Source: Tsuneonella amylolytica
GTDB taxonomy: Bacteria > Pseudomonadota > Alphaproteobacteria > Sphingomonadales > Sphingomonadaceae
Assembly: GCF_003626915.1 (NCBI RefSeq)
Contig: NZ_CP032570.1
Span: 1,302,001-1,366,000, forward strand
Length of the DNA stretch: 64,000 nt
Reading direction: 5' to 3'
Of this stretch, positions 55,579 to 62,471 are shown piece by piece. How positions within the stretch are numbered: position 1 is the first letter of the stretch; each line of letters begins with the position of its first letter. A program made the position numbers and the translations under genes. A model generated the notes under the pieces. It made no database searches and was not told the DNA's origin. It was given only the letters and a program-made list of their open reading frames with translations.

Positions 55579-55890
55579 GGGAAGCGGAGCGTCCTTGCAA
55601 GGCTCGGTGTGGCAAACGCCTCTAGTGCCCTCGCGCGGCGCGGGCAAGGCTGCGGCGAAATGGGCCCGAGCCCCGTGAACCGCCGCTTAATCGCCCGGAC
55701 ATTGACCTCCGCGTGTGGACGCCGCGCAACACTTTCCCGCCGAATGCGAGAAGTCATTCGCAAAACAGTGCAAAACCGGCTGTCACGATCCTATCATCGA
55801 ACCATGTCATCGCCGTGGGGGCGAGTCGGTTTCAGGCGAAACCGTTCCGCTCATTGGGCGTTCAGGCAACCGGGGGTTTGGAAAAGCGAA
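55579..55890. other. Divergent promoter region with small hairpins
   Basis: This 312-base gap lies between divergent genes. Visible structure: CGAATG-N8-CATTCG near 55740, and CGGTTTC-AGGC-GAAACCG at 55827-55844, about 45 bases before the next start. No convincing coding frame was found. It must hold promoters for DUF3576-leuS and for the secreted protein. Confidence 0.6.
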
Positions 55891-56685
55891 ATGGCGAAGC
55901 GTAGCGACATTGCCGGCACGAAGCGGAAGGGGGCGGTCGCCGTCCCTGCCCTGCTTGCCGCCGCGTCCGCGCTGCTCGTGGGAATTCCCACCGCCGGCCT
56001 CGCCGTCGTCGCGACCGATGTCGATGCGCCGCAGGCGCGCGTGCCGATGCAGTTCACCCCGGCCGGGGTGGACCCCGCCGCCGCCCGCCGCGTCGCCGCG
56101 AAGATCGCCGCGCGGGGACAGGAAATGCGCTTCACCCCCGCCGGCGGAATAGGCGCGCAGCGCCAGACCGTGACCGTGGCGATCCGCGTCGACGAGCCGA
56201 CCGCGCGGGCGATCTCGGTCCGCACCGCTGCCGCTTCGGCCCGGGCGATCACCGCGTCGGACGCGGGCAAGGGCCCGTCGATCGCGTCGATCGCGCCGGC
56301 CCGCTACAACCTCGGCATCGCACGCGGCTATCGCAGCTTCGCCAAGCCGGTCGAAACGGCCGCCGCGCCCGCCGGGCTCGGCATCAACAGCGCCGCCCTG
56401 CCCGACCTCGCCAGTTTCCGCCCGAGCGAAGGCGTGAAGGAGAAGCCGAGCCGCCTGCAGGGCGCGATCGCCTTCGAGAGCGAGAGCCGCACCGGCCGCA
56501 GCCCGCAGACGCTGGAGGGTGCCGGCGGACAGGCGGTCGACCTCAGCACCGGTTACCGCGTGACCCGCAACCTCAACGTCACGGCGGGCGTGCGCCTGAC
56601 GCAGGACCGCGACCGTCTCGCGCCGCTCACCGACGGCCAGCGCGACGACCAGGCCGTCTACGTGGGCACCAAGATCCGCTTCTGA
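55891..56685 (+). CDS. Secreted protein with F-T-P-A-G repeats, function unknown
   Basis: This 264-residue protein has a basic N-terminus and a hydrophobic signal (A-L-L-A-A-A-S-A-L-L-V-G). Two near copies of an (R)-F-T-P-A-G unit follow, around A-A-A-R-R-V-A-A-K-I-A-A. The C-terminus R-V-T-R-N-L-N-V-T-A-G-V-R-L and Y-V-G-T-K-I-R-F ends in Phe, like an outer-membrane beta-strand. It may be an outer-membrane or periplasmic protein; no family is recognised. An intrinsic terminator follows. Confidence 0.6.
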   Translation: MAKRSDIAGTKRKGAVAVPALLAAASALLVGIPTAGLAVVATDVDAPQARVPMQFTPAGVDPAAARRVAAKIAARGQEMRFTPAGGIGAQRQTVTVAIRVDEPTARAISVRTAAASARAITASDAGKGPSIASIAPARYNLGIARGYRSFAKPVETAAAPAGLGINSAALPDLASFRPSEGVKEKPSRLQGAIAFESESRTGRSPQTLEGAGGQAVDLSTGYRVTRNLNVTAGVRLTQDRDRLAPLTDGQRDDQAVYVGTKIRF

Positions 56686-56745: not shown

Positions 56746-56811
56746 CTTTGCGCGTGCGCCGCCTTGGCTTAGTCAGGAATGTGGAGAGACCCTGAAACGC
56801 AAGGAATACCC

Positions 56812-57537
56812 ATGACCAACCGTGTTGCCATCGTCACCGGCGGAACCCGCGGCATCGGCGAGGCGATCAGCCTCGCACTGAAGGCGCAGGGCCGCACCGT
56901 CGTCGCCAACTACGCCGGCAACGACGACAAGGCGAAGGCCTTCGCCGACCGGCACGGCATCGCGGCCTACAAGTGGGACGTGGGCGACCACCAGGCCTGC
57001 CTCGACGGGTGCGCGCAGGTCGAAAGCCAGGTCGGCCCGGTCGACATCGTGGTGAACAACGCCGGCATCACCCGCGACGGTACGCTCGCGCGGATGAGCT
57101 TCGACGACTGGAACGACGTCATGCGGGTGAACCTCGGCGGCTGCTTCAACATGGCCAAGGCCTGCTTTCCCGGCATGGCCAGCCGCGGCTGGGGCCGGAT
57201 CGTGAACATCGGCAGCATCAACGGGCAGGCCGGCCAGTACGGCCAAGTGAACTACGCCGCCGCCAAGAGCGGCATCCACGGCTTCACCAAGGCGCTGGCC
57301 CAGGAAGGCGCGAAGAAGGGCGTCACCGTCAACGCCATCGCACCTGGCTACATCGACACCGACATGGTCGCCGCGGTGCCCGAACCGGTGCTGGAAAAGA
57401 TCGTCGCCAAGATCCCCGTCGGCCGCCTCGGCCAAGCGGACGAGATCGCCCGCGGCGTGGCCTTCCTGTGCAGCGACGACGGCGGCTTCGTGACCGGCAG
57501 CACGATGAGCATCAACGGCGGCCAGCATATGTACTGA
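56812..57537 (+). CDS. phaB: Acetoacetyl-CoA reductase PhaB
   Basis: This 241-residue SDR reduces acetoacetyl-CoA to (R)-3-hydroxybutyryl-CoA for PHA synthesis. The motif T-G-G-T-R-G-I-G, N-N-A-G-I-T-R-D, the catalytic S-I-N-G-Q-A-G-Q-Y-G-Q-V-N-Y-A-A-A-K and the PhaB-like end F-V-T-G-S-T-M-S-I-N-G-G-Q-H-M-Y support it. AAGGAA precedes the ATG. It stands alone here, away from phaZ at 27 kb; no phaC is seen in the window. Confidence 0.9.
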   Translation: MTNRVAIVTGGTRGIGEAISLALKAQGRTVVANYAGNDDKAKAFADRHGIAAYKWDVGDHQACLDGCAQVESQVGPVDIVVNNAGITRDGTLARMSFDDWNDVMRVNLGGCFNMAKACFPGMASRGWGRIVNIGSINGQAGQYGQVNYAAAKSGIHGFTKALAQEGAKKGVTVNAIAPGYIDTDMVAAVPEPVLEKIVAKIPVGRLGQADEIARGVAFLCSDDGGFVTGSTMSINGGQHMY

Positions 57538-57751
57538 CGGGCGGAGGCGCGGCGACGACCGCGCCGATGCCGCACGCGAAGCGGCGGCACCGCCAGGAAC
57601 GGCCGGCGGGTTGGCGGCCATCGGCCGACCATCCCGTTCGACGTCACAGCGGCGGCTTCGCCGTCGCCCCGAGCCAGCACCATGCCTCGCCAACAACGGC
57701 CGCCCGAAGTTTGAGTATTAAACCGGCATCCCGCCGTGCTAGTTGGGCCGC

Positions 57752-58546
57752 GTGCAGCACAGACTTGAGGCCCTGTCCGATCGCGAAATGGAAGTCCTCC
57801 GTCTGCTCGCTACCGGGCACGATGCCAAATCGGCGGCGGATGTCCTGCAAGTCTCCGTCAATACGATAAACGAACGGCTGAGAGACGCCCGGCGAAAGCT
57901 GGGGACGACGAGCAGCCGAGAGGCGGCGCGCATCGTGGCGCATGCCGAAGTAGGCCCCCAAGAAACTTGGGACAAGAAAGCGGGGCTCGACAGCTTCGCG
58001 ATCGGTGCGACCAGTATGACCGACCCCGCCGTGGGCAGAAGGAAGCGCCTTTCGCTTCTGGCTTTCTTGGGAATTGGCATCATGATCGCAATCGTACTCA
58101 TCGGAACGCTTCTGGCAGTACCCGTCGACAGCCCCGTCGGTTCGGGTGCTCCTTCCCCCGCGTCCATCGCCGCATCCCCCTCACCGGCGCCCCGTGCGCC
58201 TTCGGCGATGCTCGGACCCCGGTATCTCGTGGACGTCGACGGCACGCTGCAAGGGCGGTCGGTCGCATCCTCGCAAATGCCGATGCAAGCGGGCAGCATG
58301 GCCTCGCTCTCGGATGCCGGCGCCTACGACCTGCATTTCAACGTATCGCCCGATCCGGAGACCGTCGGCAACCTGCTGGTATCGGTCAATGTCGTGCTTC
58401 CCGGCAGCGATGCCACGTTGCGCTATTCACGCACGCTTTCGGTCGCACCCGGACAACCTGCGAACTTCACCCTGGACGCGATCGGCGACAGCCCTTCACC
58501 CGGTTCTGTGACTATTACCGCCTATACGGCCAATCCCCGGTCGTAA
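57752..58546 (+). CDS. LuxR-type HTH protein with one transmembrane helix and an extracytoplasmic domain
   Basis: This 264-residue protein starts at GTG (TTG at 57743 is possible). Residues 1-65 are a LuxR/GerE-type HTH (L-S-D-R-E-M-E-V-L-R-L-L-A-T-G, then V-N-T-I-N-E-R-L-R-D-A-R-R-K-L-G). A linker and a strong membrane helix (about 101-125) follow, then a Pro/Ser/Ala-rich stretch and a beta-rich outer part. It may be a membrane-tethered one-component regulator. It is related in its HTH and linker to the DUF4019 protein at 59325-60122 but has a different sensor. Confidence 0.75.
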   Translation: MQHRLEALSDREMEVLRLLATGHDAKSAADVLQVSVNTINERLRDARRKLGTTSSREAARIVAHAEVGPQETWDKKAGLDSFAIGATSMTDPAVGRRKRLSLLAFLGIGIMIAIVLIGTLLAVPVDSPVGSGAPSPASIAASPSPAPRAPSAMLGPRYLVDVDGTLQGRSVASSQMPMQAGSMASLSDAGAYDLHFNVSPDPETVGNLLVSVNVVLPGSDATLRYSRTLSVAPGQPANFTLDAIGDSPSPGSVTITAYTANPRS

Positions 58547-58586
58547 GCGTGCTCGGGCGGCGATCGGCGCCCGGTCAAGCGGCCGC

Positions 58587-59261
58587 TCACTTCCACGCGA
58601 ACAGCAGCCGCCCCTCGCCGAGCCGCTCCAGCACTTCGCGGATCGCATCCTGCGTCACCGCGAAGCAGCCCTGGCTGCGGCCGATGAGGCCCTGCGCCGA
58701 GGCCATCGTCTCGCTGACGTAGTCCGCGCCGTGCATCACGATTGCGCGGGCTTCGGCCATGTCGTTCGTGGGATCGAGGCCGACCAGCCGGCGCGAGGCG
58801 CCGTGCTTGCCGGTGTATTGCGCCGCGGTGACATAGGCTCCTTGCGAGGACGCTTCGGAATCGGGGACGTTGGAAAAGCTCTGCAACCAGCCGCTGCGCG
58901 AAGGGTCCGAACCCTTGCCATGCGAGACGAGGTAGCTCTCGACCGCGCCGCCTTCCAGATCGACGAGATGCATGCGCGCCTCGCGCGAGGGGGCGGCAAA
59001 ATCGACCACGGCGATCCGGTCACGGTGCGGGATGCGCGCGCCGTGCCGATCCAGCGCGGCCATCGCGCGCGGATAGAGGCGCGGTTTGGCAAGATCGGGC
59101 ACGGGCGGCGGAGCGGCGGGCGCAGGCGCGGCGGTCCGTACCGGTACCGACGCCGGCTTGCCGCCGAACAGCAGCGGCAGGGCAATACCCGCCGCCGCCA
59201 CGCCGGCACCGGTTAGGAATCGCCGCCGGGCGGCATGATGTTCGGGGCCCACCTCGTCCAT
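58587..59261 (-). CDS. Murein L,D-transpeptidase catalytic domain family protein (YkuD_2-like)
   Basis: This 224-residue protein has a Tat-like N-terminus (A-R-R-R-F-L-T-G-A-G) and a hydrophobic segment. The catalytic-like motif is S-Q-G-C-F-A-V (C199), preceded by I-V-M-H-G-A-D-Y (His). This resembles the YkuD_2 / murein L,D-transpeptidase catalytic domain family found in proteobacteria; true 3-3 crosslinking activity is not shown. It lies between two HTH-membrane proteins, converging on the first. Confidence 0.85.
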   Translation of the reverse strand: MDEVGPEHHAARRRFLTGAGVAAAGIALPLLFGGKPASVPVRTAAPAPAAPPPVPDLAKPRLYPRAMAALDRHGARIPHRDRIAVVDFAAPSREARMHLVDLEGGAVESYLVSHGKGSDPSRSGWLQSFSNVPDSEASSQGAYVTAAQYTGKHGASRRLVGLDPTNDMAEARAIVMHGADYVSETMASAQGLIGRSQGCFAVTQDAIREVLERLGEGRLLFAWK

Positions 59262-59324
59262 GGCCGTTTGATAGCGGAAATCGCCTGACCGTGAGCGAAG
59301 CGCCTCGTTGCCGCAGCGACAGGT

Positions 59325-60122
59325 TTATTCGACGTAGGCGCCGACAACCTTCCAGCCGCCGCCTTCGCGCACGAGCGCGATAGTCTCGATCTTGTCGCCG
59401 CCCAGCGCGTATTTCGTCTGGAACACGACGATCTCGTTGCCGTCGGGCGGGGTGGGCACGCTTTCGACCCCGACCAGTTCGCGCGACATAACATCGCCCA
59501 GCCGGGCGCGCAGGGCGCTGGCGGCGTCCTGCCAGCCGGCGAGCGTGTTGGCCTTTCGGAAACTCGCAGCGGTGGCGGCGTAGCTGCCGGCGTAGTCGCC
59601 CGCCTCGGCAAGCTCCAGCCAGCGGCGGGCGGCCGCCGCCAGCGCGGCATCCTGTGCGGCGGCTTCGGCGGATACGGAAGGGGCGCGAACGGCGGGTGCC
59701 TGAGCGGAGGGTACTTGGGCGGCGGGGGCCGCGAGAGCGATGGCAAGGGCGATGGCGAGGGACAAGGCAATGGCTCCTGTGGCGACGAACCAGGTCCGCC
59801 GCATGCGCCGCCTGTCACCCTGACCGGCGTGCTGCGCCGTACCGACATCGGTCACGGTCCTTGCCGCCGCATCCCCCAAAGGCTCGTCCCCGAAAGATTG
59901 GGGGTCGCCAGGCGCCTCCGGCTCCTCGTGCGCCAGCAGCATGCGCGCCGCCTCGCGGCTGCTCGATACGCCGAGGATTCGCCGCGCGTCGCGCAGGCGT
60001 TCGTTGACGGTGTGGACCGATCGGCCGAGTGCGCGGGCGCACGACTTGGCATCGTGCCCGCGCCCGATCAGGCGCAGCGCCTCGCGCTGCTTCTCGCTGA
60101 GCTGGGCGACGGCATCGGGCAT
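59325..60122 (-). CDS. LuxR-type HTH, transmembrane, DUF4019 protein
   Basis: This 265-residue protein has an N-terminal HTH (L-S-E-K-Q-R-E-A-L-R-L-I-G-R-G, then V-N-E-R-L-R-D-A-R-R-I-L-G), one membrane helix (about 110-132), an Ala/Pro linker and a DUF4019 domain (about 165-265: W-L-E-L-A-E-A-G-D-Y ... W-K-V-V-G-A-Y). The HTH is near-identical in pattern to the protein at 57752-58546. A membrane-anchored transcription regulator is inferred. Confidence 0.82.
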   Translation of the reverse strand: MPDAVAQLSEKQREALRLIGRGHDAKSCARALGRSVHTVNERLRDARRILGVSSSREAARMLLAHEEPEAPGDPQSFGDEPLGDAAARTVTDVGTAQHAGQGDRRRMRRTWFVATGAIALSLAIALAIALAAPAAQVPSAQAPAVRAPSVSAEAAAQDAALAAAARRWLELAEAGDYAGSYAATAASFRKANTLAGWQDAASALRARLGDVMSRELVGVESVPTPPDGNEIVVFQTKYALGGDKIETIALVREGGGWKVVGAYVE

Positions 60123-60159
60123 CGGGTGGAAGGCTACGGGCCGGGGCGGGCCGCCGCCA

Positions 60160-60176
60160 CCCCCAAAAATTGGGGG
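60160..60176. promoter_or_regulatory. CCCCCAAAAATTGGGGG dyad in a divergent promoter
   Basis: A perfect seven-base inverted repeat (CCCCCAA/TTGGGGG, spacer AAA) centred between the DUF4019 HTH gene and the RHH gene, about 38 bases from each start. It is the right size and place for an operator controlling both. Confidence 0.5.
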
Positions 60177-60213: not shown

Positions 60214-60471
60214 ATGCCCGCGCCTTACCATCCCCCCGTCAAGCGATCGGTCGCGATCGCCGGCCACAAGACCAGCATCAGCTTGGAGCCGATGTTCTGG
60301 GACATGCTGCGCGCCGCCGCCGCGCGGGAAGGGACGGCGGTGAGCGCGCTGGTCGCCCGCATCGACGAGGAGCGGATCGCCAGCGTGTCCCCGTGCGGGC
60401 TCGCCGGTGCGATCCGCATATGGCTCGTCCATGCAGAAACGGGCGGCTCCGTAGAACCGCCCGCTTCATGA
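60214..60471 (+). CDS. Ribbon-helix-helix (RHH_4-like) protein
   Basis: This 85-residue protein has the pattern K-R-S-V-A-I-A-G-H-K-T-S-I-S-L-E-P-M-F-W-D-M-L-R followed by helix A-V-S-A-L-V-A-R-I-D, as in the RHH_4 family (DNA-binding or AT-hook-like, role uncertain). A GAGGCGGGG ribosome site precedes the ATG. It is divergent from the HTH-DUF4019 gene. Confidence 0.82.
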   Translation: MPAPYHPPVKRSVAIAGHKTSISLEPMFWDMLRAAAAREGTAVSALVARIDEERIASVSPCGLAGAIRIWLVHAETGGSVEPPAS

Positions 60472-61085: not shown

Positions 61086-62369
61086 CTATTCGTCGCCGAC
61101 CCGCTCCACAGCCGCGCCGACCAGCGCCAGCTTCTCTTCCAGCCGCTCGTACCCGCGGTCGAGGTGGTAGAGGCGGCGCACTTCGGTCCGCCCCTCGGCG
61201 CGCAGCCCCGCGATGACGAGGCTCATCGAGGCGCGCAGGTCGGTCGCCATCACTTCCGCGCCGGTCAGCCCCGACACACCGTGGACGATCGCGGTGCGGC
61301 CGCTGGTCTCGATATGCGCGCCCATGCGGGCAAGCTCGGGCACGTGCATGTAGCGGTTCTCGAAGATCGTCTCGGTCAGCACGCTGGTCCCCTCCGCCAC
61401 GGTCAGCAGCGCCATCAGCTGGGCCTGCATGTCTGTGGCGAGCGCCGGGTAGGGCGCGGTCGACAGGTTGACCGCCTTGAGCTTGCCGTCCGCCGCCACG
61501 CGCACGCCGCCCTTCTCCGCCTCGCACGACACGCCGATGTTGCGCAGGGCGTGGAGCGTGGCGGCCATCTCTTCCGCCTTCGCGCCCTCGAGCAGCACCT
61601 CGCCCCCGGTGATCGCGGCGGCGCAGGCATAGCTGCCCGCCTCGATCCGGTCGGCCATCACGCGGTAGGTCGCCCCGTGGAGGCGCCTCACCCCGTGGAT
61701 CGTGAGGTCGCTGGTGCCGATCCCCTCGATCTCCGCCCCCATCGCGACGAGAAGGTTGCACAGGTCCACGATCTCGGGCTCGCGCGCCGCGTTGCCGAGG
61801 CGGCTGGTGCCGGTGCACAGCACCGCGGCCATCAGCGCGTTCTCGGTCGCGCCGACGCTGACCACGGGAAAGTCGTAGTCCCCGCCCGGCAGCCCGCCAT
61901 CGGGCGCGACCGCCTTCACGTATCCTTGCGCGAGCTCGATGTCCGCGCCCAGCGCCTCCAGCACCTTCAGATGAAGGTCGATCGGGCGGTTGCCGATCGC
62001 GCAGCCGCCGGGCAGCGAGACGGTCGCCTCGCCCATGCGCGCCAGCATCGGGCCGAGCACGAGGATCGAGGCGCGCATCTTGCGCACCAGCTCGTACGGG
62101 GCGACGGTGTTGGTCACTCGCGGCGTTTCCAGCGTCATCACCCGCCCGAAATCCTCCGGCCGGTTGCCCTGGATCGCGGTGGTGACGCCGAACTGGTTCA
62201 TCAGGTGCTGGAACCCGTCGATATCGGCCAGCCGCGGCAGGTTGCGCAGCGTCAGCGGCTCCTCGGTCAGCAGCGCGCACGGGATGAGCGTGAGCGCGGC
62301 GTTCTTCGCGCCGGAAATGGGAATGGTGCCCGACAGGCGCTTGCCGCCCTCGACGATGATCTTGTCCAT
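61086..62369 (-). CDS. murA: UDP-N-acetylglucosamine 1-carboxyvinyltransferase
   Basis: This 427-residue enzyme is the first committed step of peptidoglycan synthesis, adding enolpyruvyl from PEP. K22 lies in G-A-K-N-A-A-L, and the catalytic Cys123 in L-P-G-G-C-A-I-G (fosfomycin target). The ending [11 protein letters not shown] fits the family. The [12 protein letters not shown] was preferred over an extended upstream start. Confidence 0.97.
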
Positions 62370-62471
62370 GGGCTGCGGCTCTAGCGCGAAACGCGAACGC
62401 GACAAGGGCGGCGCGCAGAGTTGATCCATGTTGGATTGCGAAGCTCGATTGCTTTGCTATCCCCCCGCCCC

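Follow-up and report, generated by a model that had tools for sequence, protein, structure and literature searches.

Candidate membrane-tethered LuxR-type regulators of Sphingomonadaceae with exchangeable outer domains and a conserved dyad ahead of the DUF4019-type genes

LuxR/NarL class II activators have a LuxR-type HTH and act from a ~20-bp dyad, the lux box, near -43. ToxR/CadC-type TTRs combine an N-terminal cytoplasmic DNA-binding domain, one TM and a C-terminal outer domain in one polypeptide (PMC5936718, PMC10269533), and the DNA-binding domain of the ToxR family is a winged HTH (PMC5936718). How membrane-fixed transcription factors of this kind find their targets is poorly understood (PMC10269533). 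Membrane-bound regulators with a LuxR-type HTH have been described in Eggerthella lenta, where DadR, CadR and HcdR have 10-12 TMs, the polytopic membrane domain being N-terminal and the HTH C-terminal (PMC9734109). Here we describe two proteins, P1 and P3, encoded in a 64,000-nt stretch of the Tsuneonella amylolytica chromosome (the window; Table 1), which resemble each of these systems in part. P1 and P3 have the TTR arrangement, with a single TM between the two domains by hydropathy (and as an AF2 helix in P3) and a topology predicted from it. In place of a winged HTH, however, they carry a LuxR/GerE HTH: Pfam returned GerE or Sigma70_r4-type HTH matches and no Trans_reg_C at E <= 1, and the modelled P3 structure is LuxR-type. 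Compared to the Eggerthella regulators, the HTH is N-terminal, there is only one TM, and the outer domain is C-terminal. Unlike class II activators, P1 and P3 had no autoinducer-binding or receiver domain in Pfam searches (NCBIfam matches to such regulators covered the HTH only), they are predicted to be tethered, and the main predicted site of P3 is its own, presumably leaderless, gene. A search of open-access full-text articles returned no published function for DUF4019, the outer domain of P3, and no description of the present HTH-TM family. The main text of a TTR census (PMC10269533) contains none of the terms LuxR, GerE, DUF4019 and Sphingomon.

Table 1. Features of the P1-P3 locus, in window coordinates
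Feature	Position	Strand	Basis and remarks
phaB-like SDR gene	56779-57537	+	left border of slot
-10-like TAGTTG before P1	57740-57745	+	T 12 nt ahead of GTG start; leaderless geometry
P1	57752-58546	+	ORF, 264 aa from GTG at 57752
P1 LuxR/GerE HTH	57770-57934	+	Pfam GerE 5.8e-11, residues 7-61, above cut-off
P1 TM helix	58064-58120	+	hydropathy
P1 outer domain	58142-58543	+	predicted beta-rich at low confidence; no known family
YkuD_2 L,D-transpeptidase-family protein	58587-59261	-	ORF, 224 aa; probable bystander in slot
P3	59325-60122	-	ORF, 265 aa
P3 DUF4019, NTF2-like outer domain	59340-59633	-	Pfam and structure model
P3 TM helix	59733-59789	-	hydropathy; AF2 helix 103-134
P3 LuxR-type HTH	59940-60104	-	Pfam and structure model
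-10-like TAGCCT before P3	60131-60136	-	conserved spacing from dyad; predicted start 2 nt before ATG
Dyad upstream of P3	60157-60175	-	perfect core CCCCCAA-TTT-TTGGGGG
RHH_4 (PF13467) DNA-binding protein gene	60214-60471	+	transcribed away from P3; neighbour that recurs in a single chromosomal slot
murA-type (EPSP_synthase family) gene	61086-62429	-	right border of slot

The host genome consists of one 2.79-Mb contig, and an HTH profile search at E <= 1e-8 found family HTHs in P1 and P3 alone. The first-pass annotation had read both proteins as a LuxR-type HTH, a linker, one membrane helix and an outer domain. Pfam and hydropathy bear out this layout, and the ORFs and Pfam place the YkuD_2 gene on the minus strand between them, as described. 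The two HTHs align closely and both contain the blocks GHDAKS and ERLRDARR; each protein has one strongly hydrophobic helix (best 19-residue windows 105-123 in P1 and 112-130 in P3). The reported similarity of the P-Q linkers extends to a common PQ dipeptide, while the rest of the linkers differs. That the outer domains differ was upheld by a local alignment score of 26, compared to a mean of 27.5 and a maximum of 53 for 300 shuffles. The ORF list gives P1 an alternative start, a TTG at 57743 upstream of the GTG. The middle protein matched YkuD_2 (PF13645) at 5.9e-46 and contains SQGCF, which we take to be the catalytic Cys motif of YkuD_2 L,D-transpeptidases; by profile and motif it is a member of this family with predicted activity.

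Pfam assigned DUF4019 (PF13211) to residues 164-261 of P3 at 4.4e-21 (75.7 bits against a gathering score of 26.5). The HTH matched Sigma70_r4_2 at 2.7e-6 (27.4 bits, cut-off 25.7), and GerE at 1.1e-4 with 22.2 bits, just below the cut-off of 23.5. An AlphaFold2 model built from 35 sequences had a mean pLDDT of 85.6, with most blocks of the HTH and DUF4019 at 97-98. The modelled HTH resembled the DNA-binding domains of LasR and VraR (Z 11.9; VIA), which places P3, on the model, in the LuxR/GerE HTH superfamily. The structure search that had been proposed for DUF4019 pointed to an NTF2-like fold. Matches included the DUF3887 protein 4hyz (Z 13.5, rmsd 2.3, 106 aligned), the CaMKII hub (Z 11.8) and the N-terminal extension of PBP5/PBP2a (Z about 11); Foldseek gave a best E of 2.4e-3, with none <= 0.001. 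DUF4019 is thus predicted to fold NTF2-like, and the outer domain of P3 would lie on the periplasmic side.

The layout is no chance arrangement: full-length homologues of P3 were found in 11 of 59 other genomes, and 387 of 400 pattern-matching stretches from GTDB species genomes encode a relative. We worked with named loci that are the best 80 of these 387 and are therefore biased toward close relatives of P3; 61 of the 80 have full 10-kb flanks on both sides, some of the others being shorter. The LuxR-type HTH is intact, with the recognition-helix motif SVHT[IV]N[ED]RLR retained in 79 of the 80 relatives. The HTH profile found 99 of 149 genomes of the family at E <= 1e-8, tail-anchored and other forms counted. 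Outer domains in this set included EF-hands (above the Pfam cut-off in L051, L220, L225 and L228, below it in L224 and L230, by eye in L020 and L233), the Ig-like Big_5 (scoring over the cut-off in L214 and under it in L047 and L227, by eye in L046) and DUF2807 (L216). No Pfam outer domain was found in L223, L226 and L237, nor in L081, L218, L219 and (from sequence alone) L222, the last four being mutually alike. The P3 family of Sphingomonadaceae, in the GTDB sense, appears to keep the HTH and TM and to swap outer domains. The profile also matched a tail-anchored group (L232, L234-L236, L238-L241, L048, L049) with a single TM helix at the extreme C-terminus and no outer domain. In a tree of the HTHs, based on few columns, the DUF4019 proteins do not form one clade.

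Upstream of the regulator genes we found an imperfect dyad, YAC(R/C)AA-NNN-TTNGGGGTRG(C). A 24-column PWM, trained on the same 81 upstreams that it scored (the 80 loci and the window), exceeded 8 in 76 of them compared to 0 of 810 shuffles. Four of the five low-scoring upstreams (L131, L143, L157, L160) have one extra G by eye; L169 does not. By eye, the dyad of these four adjoins an inverted repeat rich in GC, CCGCGGC...GCCGCGG, perhaps the terminator of the preceding gene. Among 93 HTH proteins, the PWM exceeded 8 in 33 of 44 DUF4019 rows versus 5 of 49 others, and two of those five (L009, L210) belong to the DUF4019 type, judged from Pfam or the HTH; removal of the window and seven rows shared with the training loci left 25 of 36 DUF4019 rows. 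Eleven of the 44 lacked the element at this threshold. By eye, about five of these look operonic (L202, L105, L209, L207, L215), lying <=14 nt from an apparent upstream stop, and L006 and L205 have diverged versions, which leaves four unexplained. L214 and L046, which have an Ig-like outer domain and the same or nearly the same recognition helix, also lack the dyad. Tests for inverted repeats in single upstreams gave mostly non-significant results (L237, at 1/100 shuffles, and L227, at 8/100, were the only low ones among 29 rows), so the case for the dyad rests on its conservation.

To place the element in whole genomes, we used the AT-core pattern MCNAAWWWTTNGGGGTRG, picked after the alignment was seen. 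It matched in 23 of 149 family genomes, which partly overlap the 80 loci, once in each, and the backward control gave 0; this strict pattern misses many regulators. Of the 23 matches, 21 sit 50-84 bp ahead of the HTH of a family HTH-TM regulator, the exceptions being in G020 C29, where the locus (L249) ends about 56 bp past the element, and at G154 C1:2699315. The search for DUF4019-type HTHs found none in G154, whose match, a strict dyad around 1500 of L275, is possibly a relic or a trans target. A broad pattern with any centre was not enriched in 60 related genomes (24 matches, of which 6 precede a regulator, versus 24 in the control), so the specificity of the dyad depends on its AT-rich centre. 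The dyad ahead of P3, at 60157-60174 on the minus strand, is the sole match in the host genome to either pattern. No second site indicating a wider regulon was found there, and dyad sites being scarce elsewhere, no downstream regulon emerged. At two mismatches the window held 7 matches, some of them both strands of one palindrome, compared to a shuffle mean of 1.55; a one-mismatch site inside P3 (59890-59907) was taken as chance. The element travels with the gene, being present in 31 of 31 loci of the phaB slot and in 43 of the 48 loci that lack both phaB and RHH_4 as neighbours.

When the 76 upstreams were aligned on the dyad, C-N-T-A-G emerged as the single other conserved block; its TA falls at positions 40-41 in 67 of 76. 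Taking this T as -12 puts the centre of the dyad near -44 and +1 at position 52; the lux box of class II LuxR activators sits near -42 to -43. An in-frame ATG lay 52-56 nt past the motif start (position 0) in 67 of 76 upstreams, compared to a mean of 6.8 and a maximum of 14 of 76 in shuffles, and an SD-like 4-mer preceded it in 2 of 67. Because an in-frame ATG stands where transcription should start and SD-like 4-mers are rare, leaderless mRNA is predicted. The YkuD_2 gene also has a TA 12 nt ahead of its ATG, so the leaderless geometry, unlike the dyad, is not peculiar to the regulator family.

We consider it reasonably probable that P3 is a tethered one-component regulator which, while fixed in the membrane, binds the dyad in its own promoter, and whose transcript is leaderless. 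Its cytoplasmic LuxR/GerE HTH would be joined through one TM helix to a periplasmic NTF2-like DUF4019, which would serve sensing or dimerisation; we infer that the outer domain perceives a signal. The HTH would bind the ~19-bp imperfect dyad, centred about 44 bp before the putative transcription start, the position of a LuxR-type class II activator, with the transcript beginning at or beside the ATG. This predicts a lux-box-like autoregulation in which P3 acts mainly on its own promoter, as a self-contained sensing unit found at varied chromosomal sites. Since the dyad occupies the place of a -35, activation is the more likely mode, although repression is also possible. If this is correct, the main site lies within about 100 bp of the regulator's own coding sequence, giving a minimal system in which the search for the target could be tested together with membrane insertion and expression from leaderless mRNA. 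In this family one HTH-TM chassis would moreover come with several naturally exchanged sensors (NTF2-like, EF-hand, Ig-like, DUF2807), and an operator can now be predicted for DUF4019 regulators.

P1 is harder to place. Its outer domain had no Pfam match at E <= 0.01 and no convincing relative across 296 genomes of the order; eight weak matches (E 0.0016-0.0065) were judged chance upon reading. A single-sequence AF2 model for this domain had a mean pLDDT of 51.5, and the structure search proposed for it gave PDB matches that carry no weight (best E 0.31). P1 is compositionally atypical, with a GC of 63.3% and a GC3 of 0.71 compared to a GC3 of 0.83-0.94 in seven neighbouring genes, and its branch in the HTH tree is long, with a placement that the few columns do not settle. 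We read P1 as a diverged paralogue, probably of recent arrival, with an orphan outer domain. The composition, the outer domain without relatives and the long branch would also fit a gene without a role, either decaying or recently acquired. We regard this reading as possible but doubtful, since the frame and the TM helix are intact, the family residues of the HTH are kept, and a TA stands 12 nt ahead of the start as in the rest of the family. No DUF4019-type dyad was found upstream of P1 (PWM -20.0). The recognition helices of P1 (SVNTINERLR) and P3 (SVHTVNERLR) are almost alike, and P1 may therefore read the same site as P3.

The EF-hand proteins suggest that helix and operator may change together. 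All nine rows listed for this clade, which includes L226 and L237 without an EF-hand match, share the recognition helix S-x-x-AVEKRLK. Their upstreams carry a different element, GGTACCA..., and in this small sample 7 of 10 have an in-frame start 53-55 nt further along and 6 of 10 have TA at 40-42; it is missing in L226 and L233, and in L230, which has two copies, the second was taken. A genome search with this element was only partly specific, with matches in five genomes, three before EF-hand regulators and two not (G022, G000 C1:2561608), and one control match, in G027. One reading of these data is a portable cassette, in which dyad, -10 and leaderless ATG are rigidly spaced ahead of an HTH-TM with an exchangeable sensor, clades have changed helix and operator together with the spacing kept, and P1 and P3 converge on the single dyad of the genome. 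We put this forward tentatively, as somewhat unlikely to hold in full. The same clade bears on whether another transcription factor, rather than the regulator, reads the dyad and controls the regulator gene. Such a factor could account for regulators that lack the element. It is, however, an unlikely explanation: AT-core sites number roughly one per genome and accompany the regulator gene when its location changes, it would be less economical to maintain a separate factor for one target in so many genera, and the EF-hand clade pairs a different element with a different recognition helix. Still less probable is that the element represents the -35 portion of an alternative sigma factor promoter. 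The fixed spacing to the -10-like TA and the position of GGGGTRGC within the -35 region would suit a sigma factor, but the dyad symmetry reaches upstream of the -35 to a conserved YAC(R)AA, and a sigma factor would be expected to serve a larger number of such promoters than the roughly one seen per genome. Binding of the dyad by the regulator itself remains our preferred reading.

The first-pass annotation had also tied the two regulators to the YkuD_2 gene as an envelope-stress sensor, and had made this link dependent on a conserved neighbourhood in related genomes. No such neighbourhood was found. The proposed survey of co-occurrence gave no YkuD_2 nearby in any of the 80 named loci (again the best 80 of 387), and coordinates and ±8-kb loci gave none in the 11 other regulator-bearing genomes among the 59 relatives. 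Envelope-stress sensing is thus unsupported by the neighbourhood, and the NTF2-like outer fold, whose modelled matches include the PBP2a/PBP5 extensions among unrelated NTF2-like proteins, is the only feature compatible with it. Of the earlier interpretation, therefore, the membrane-tethered one-component regulators with an intact LuxR-type HTH stand, and the functional tie to YkuD_2 falls. G009, G010 and G005, in none of which P3 was matched, encode the nearest relatives of the YkuD_2 protein (62-66% identity), and in G010 (L075) YkuD_2 occupies the same slot with no matched regulator, suggesting that the gene is a probable unrelated bystander. That P1 and P3 control the murein enzyme between them is most improbable: the genes are adjacent in this strain, P3 is followed on its own strand, after 63 bp, by YkuD_2, which makes co-transcription possible, and the PBP-like match of the outer fold, one of many, would suit such a module, but the pair is not kept elsewhere, no dyad precedes YkuD_2 at up to two mismatches, and the gene has a -10-like TATCAA of its own, with the T 12 nt ahead of its ATG. 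A second YkuD_2 paralogue is encoded in the host genome at G000:C1:891701-892324.

The slot itself recurs. Its gene order is leuS, a presumably DUF3576-like gene, an unnamed gene and phaB on the left, and murA and galU on the right. Among the 80 loci, phaB stands tail-to-tail with the regulator in 31 and a divergent RHH_4 gene, whose identity was checked by Pfam in the window and one relative, is found in 25; both are present in 24 and neither in 48. Outside the phaB/RHH_4/murA slot, no neighbour was common to more than 6 of the 80 loci among four genes on each side (ORFs >= 90 aa). A protein of unknown family, encoded at 55609-56685 between the DUF3576-like gene and phaB, was matched in 23 of the 80 loci as well as in the window. 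The RHH_4 gene shares its intergenic region with the dyad, and the two divergent genes may be co-regulated.
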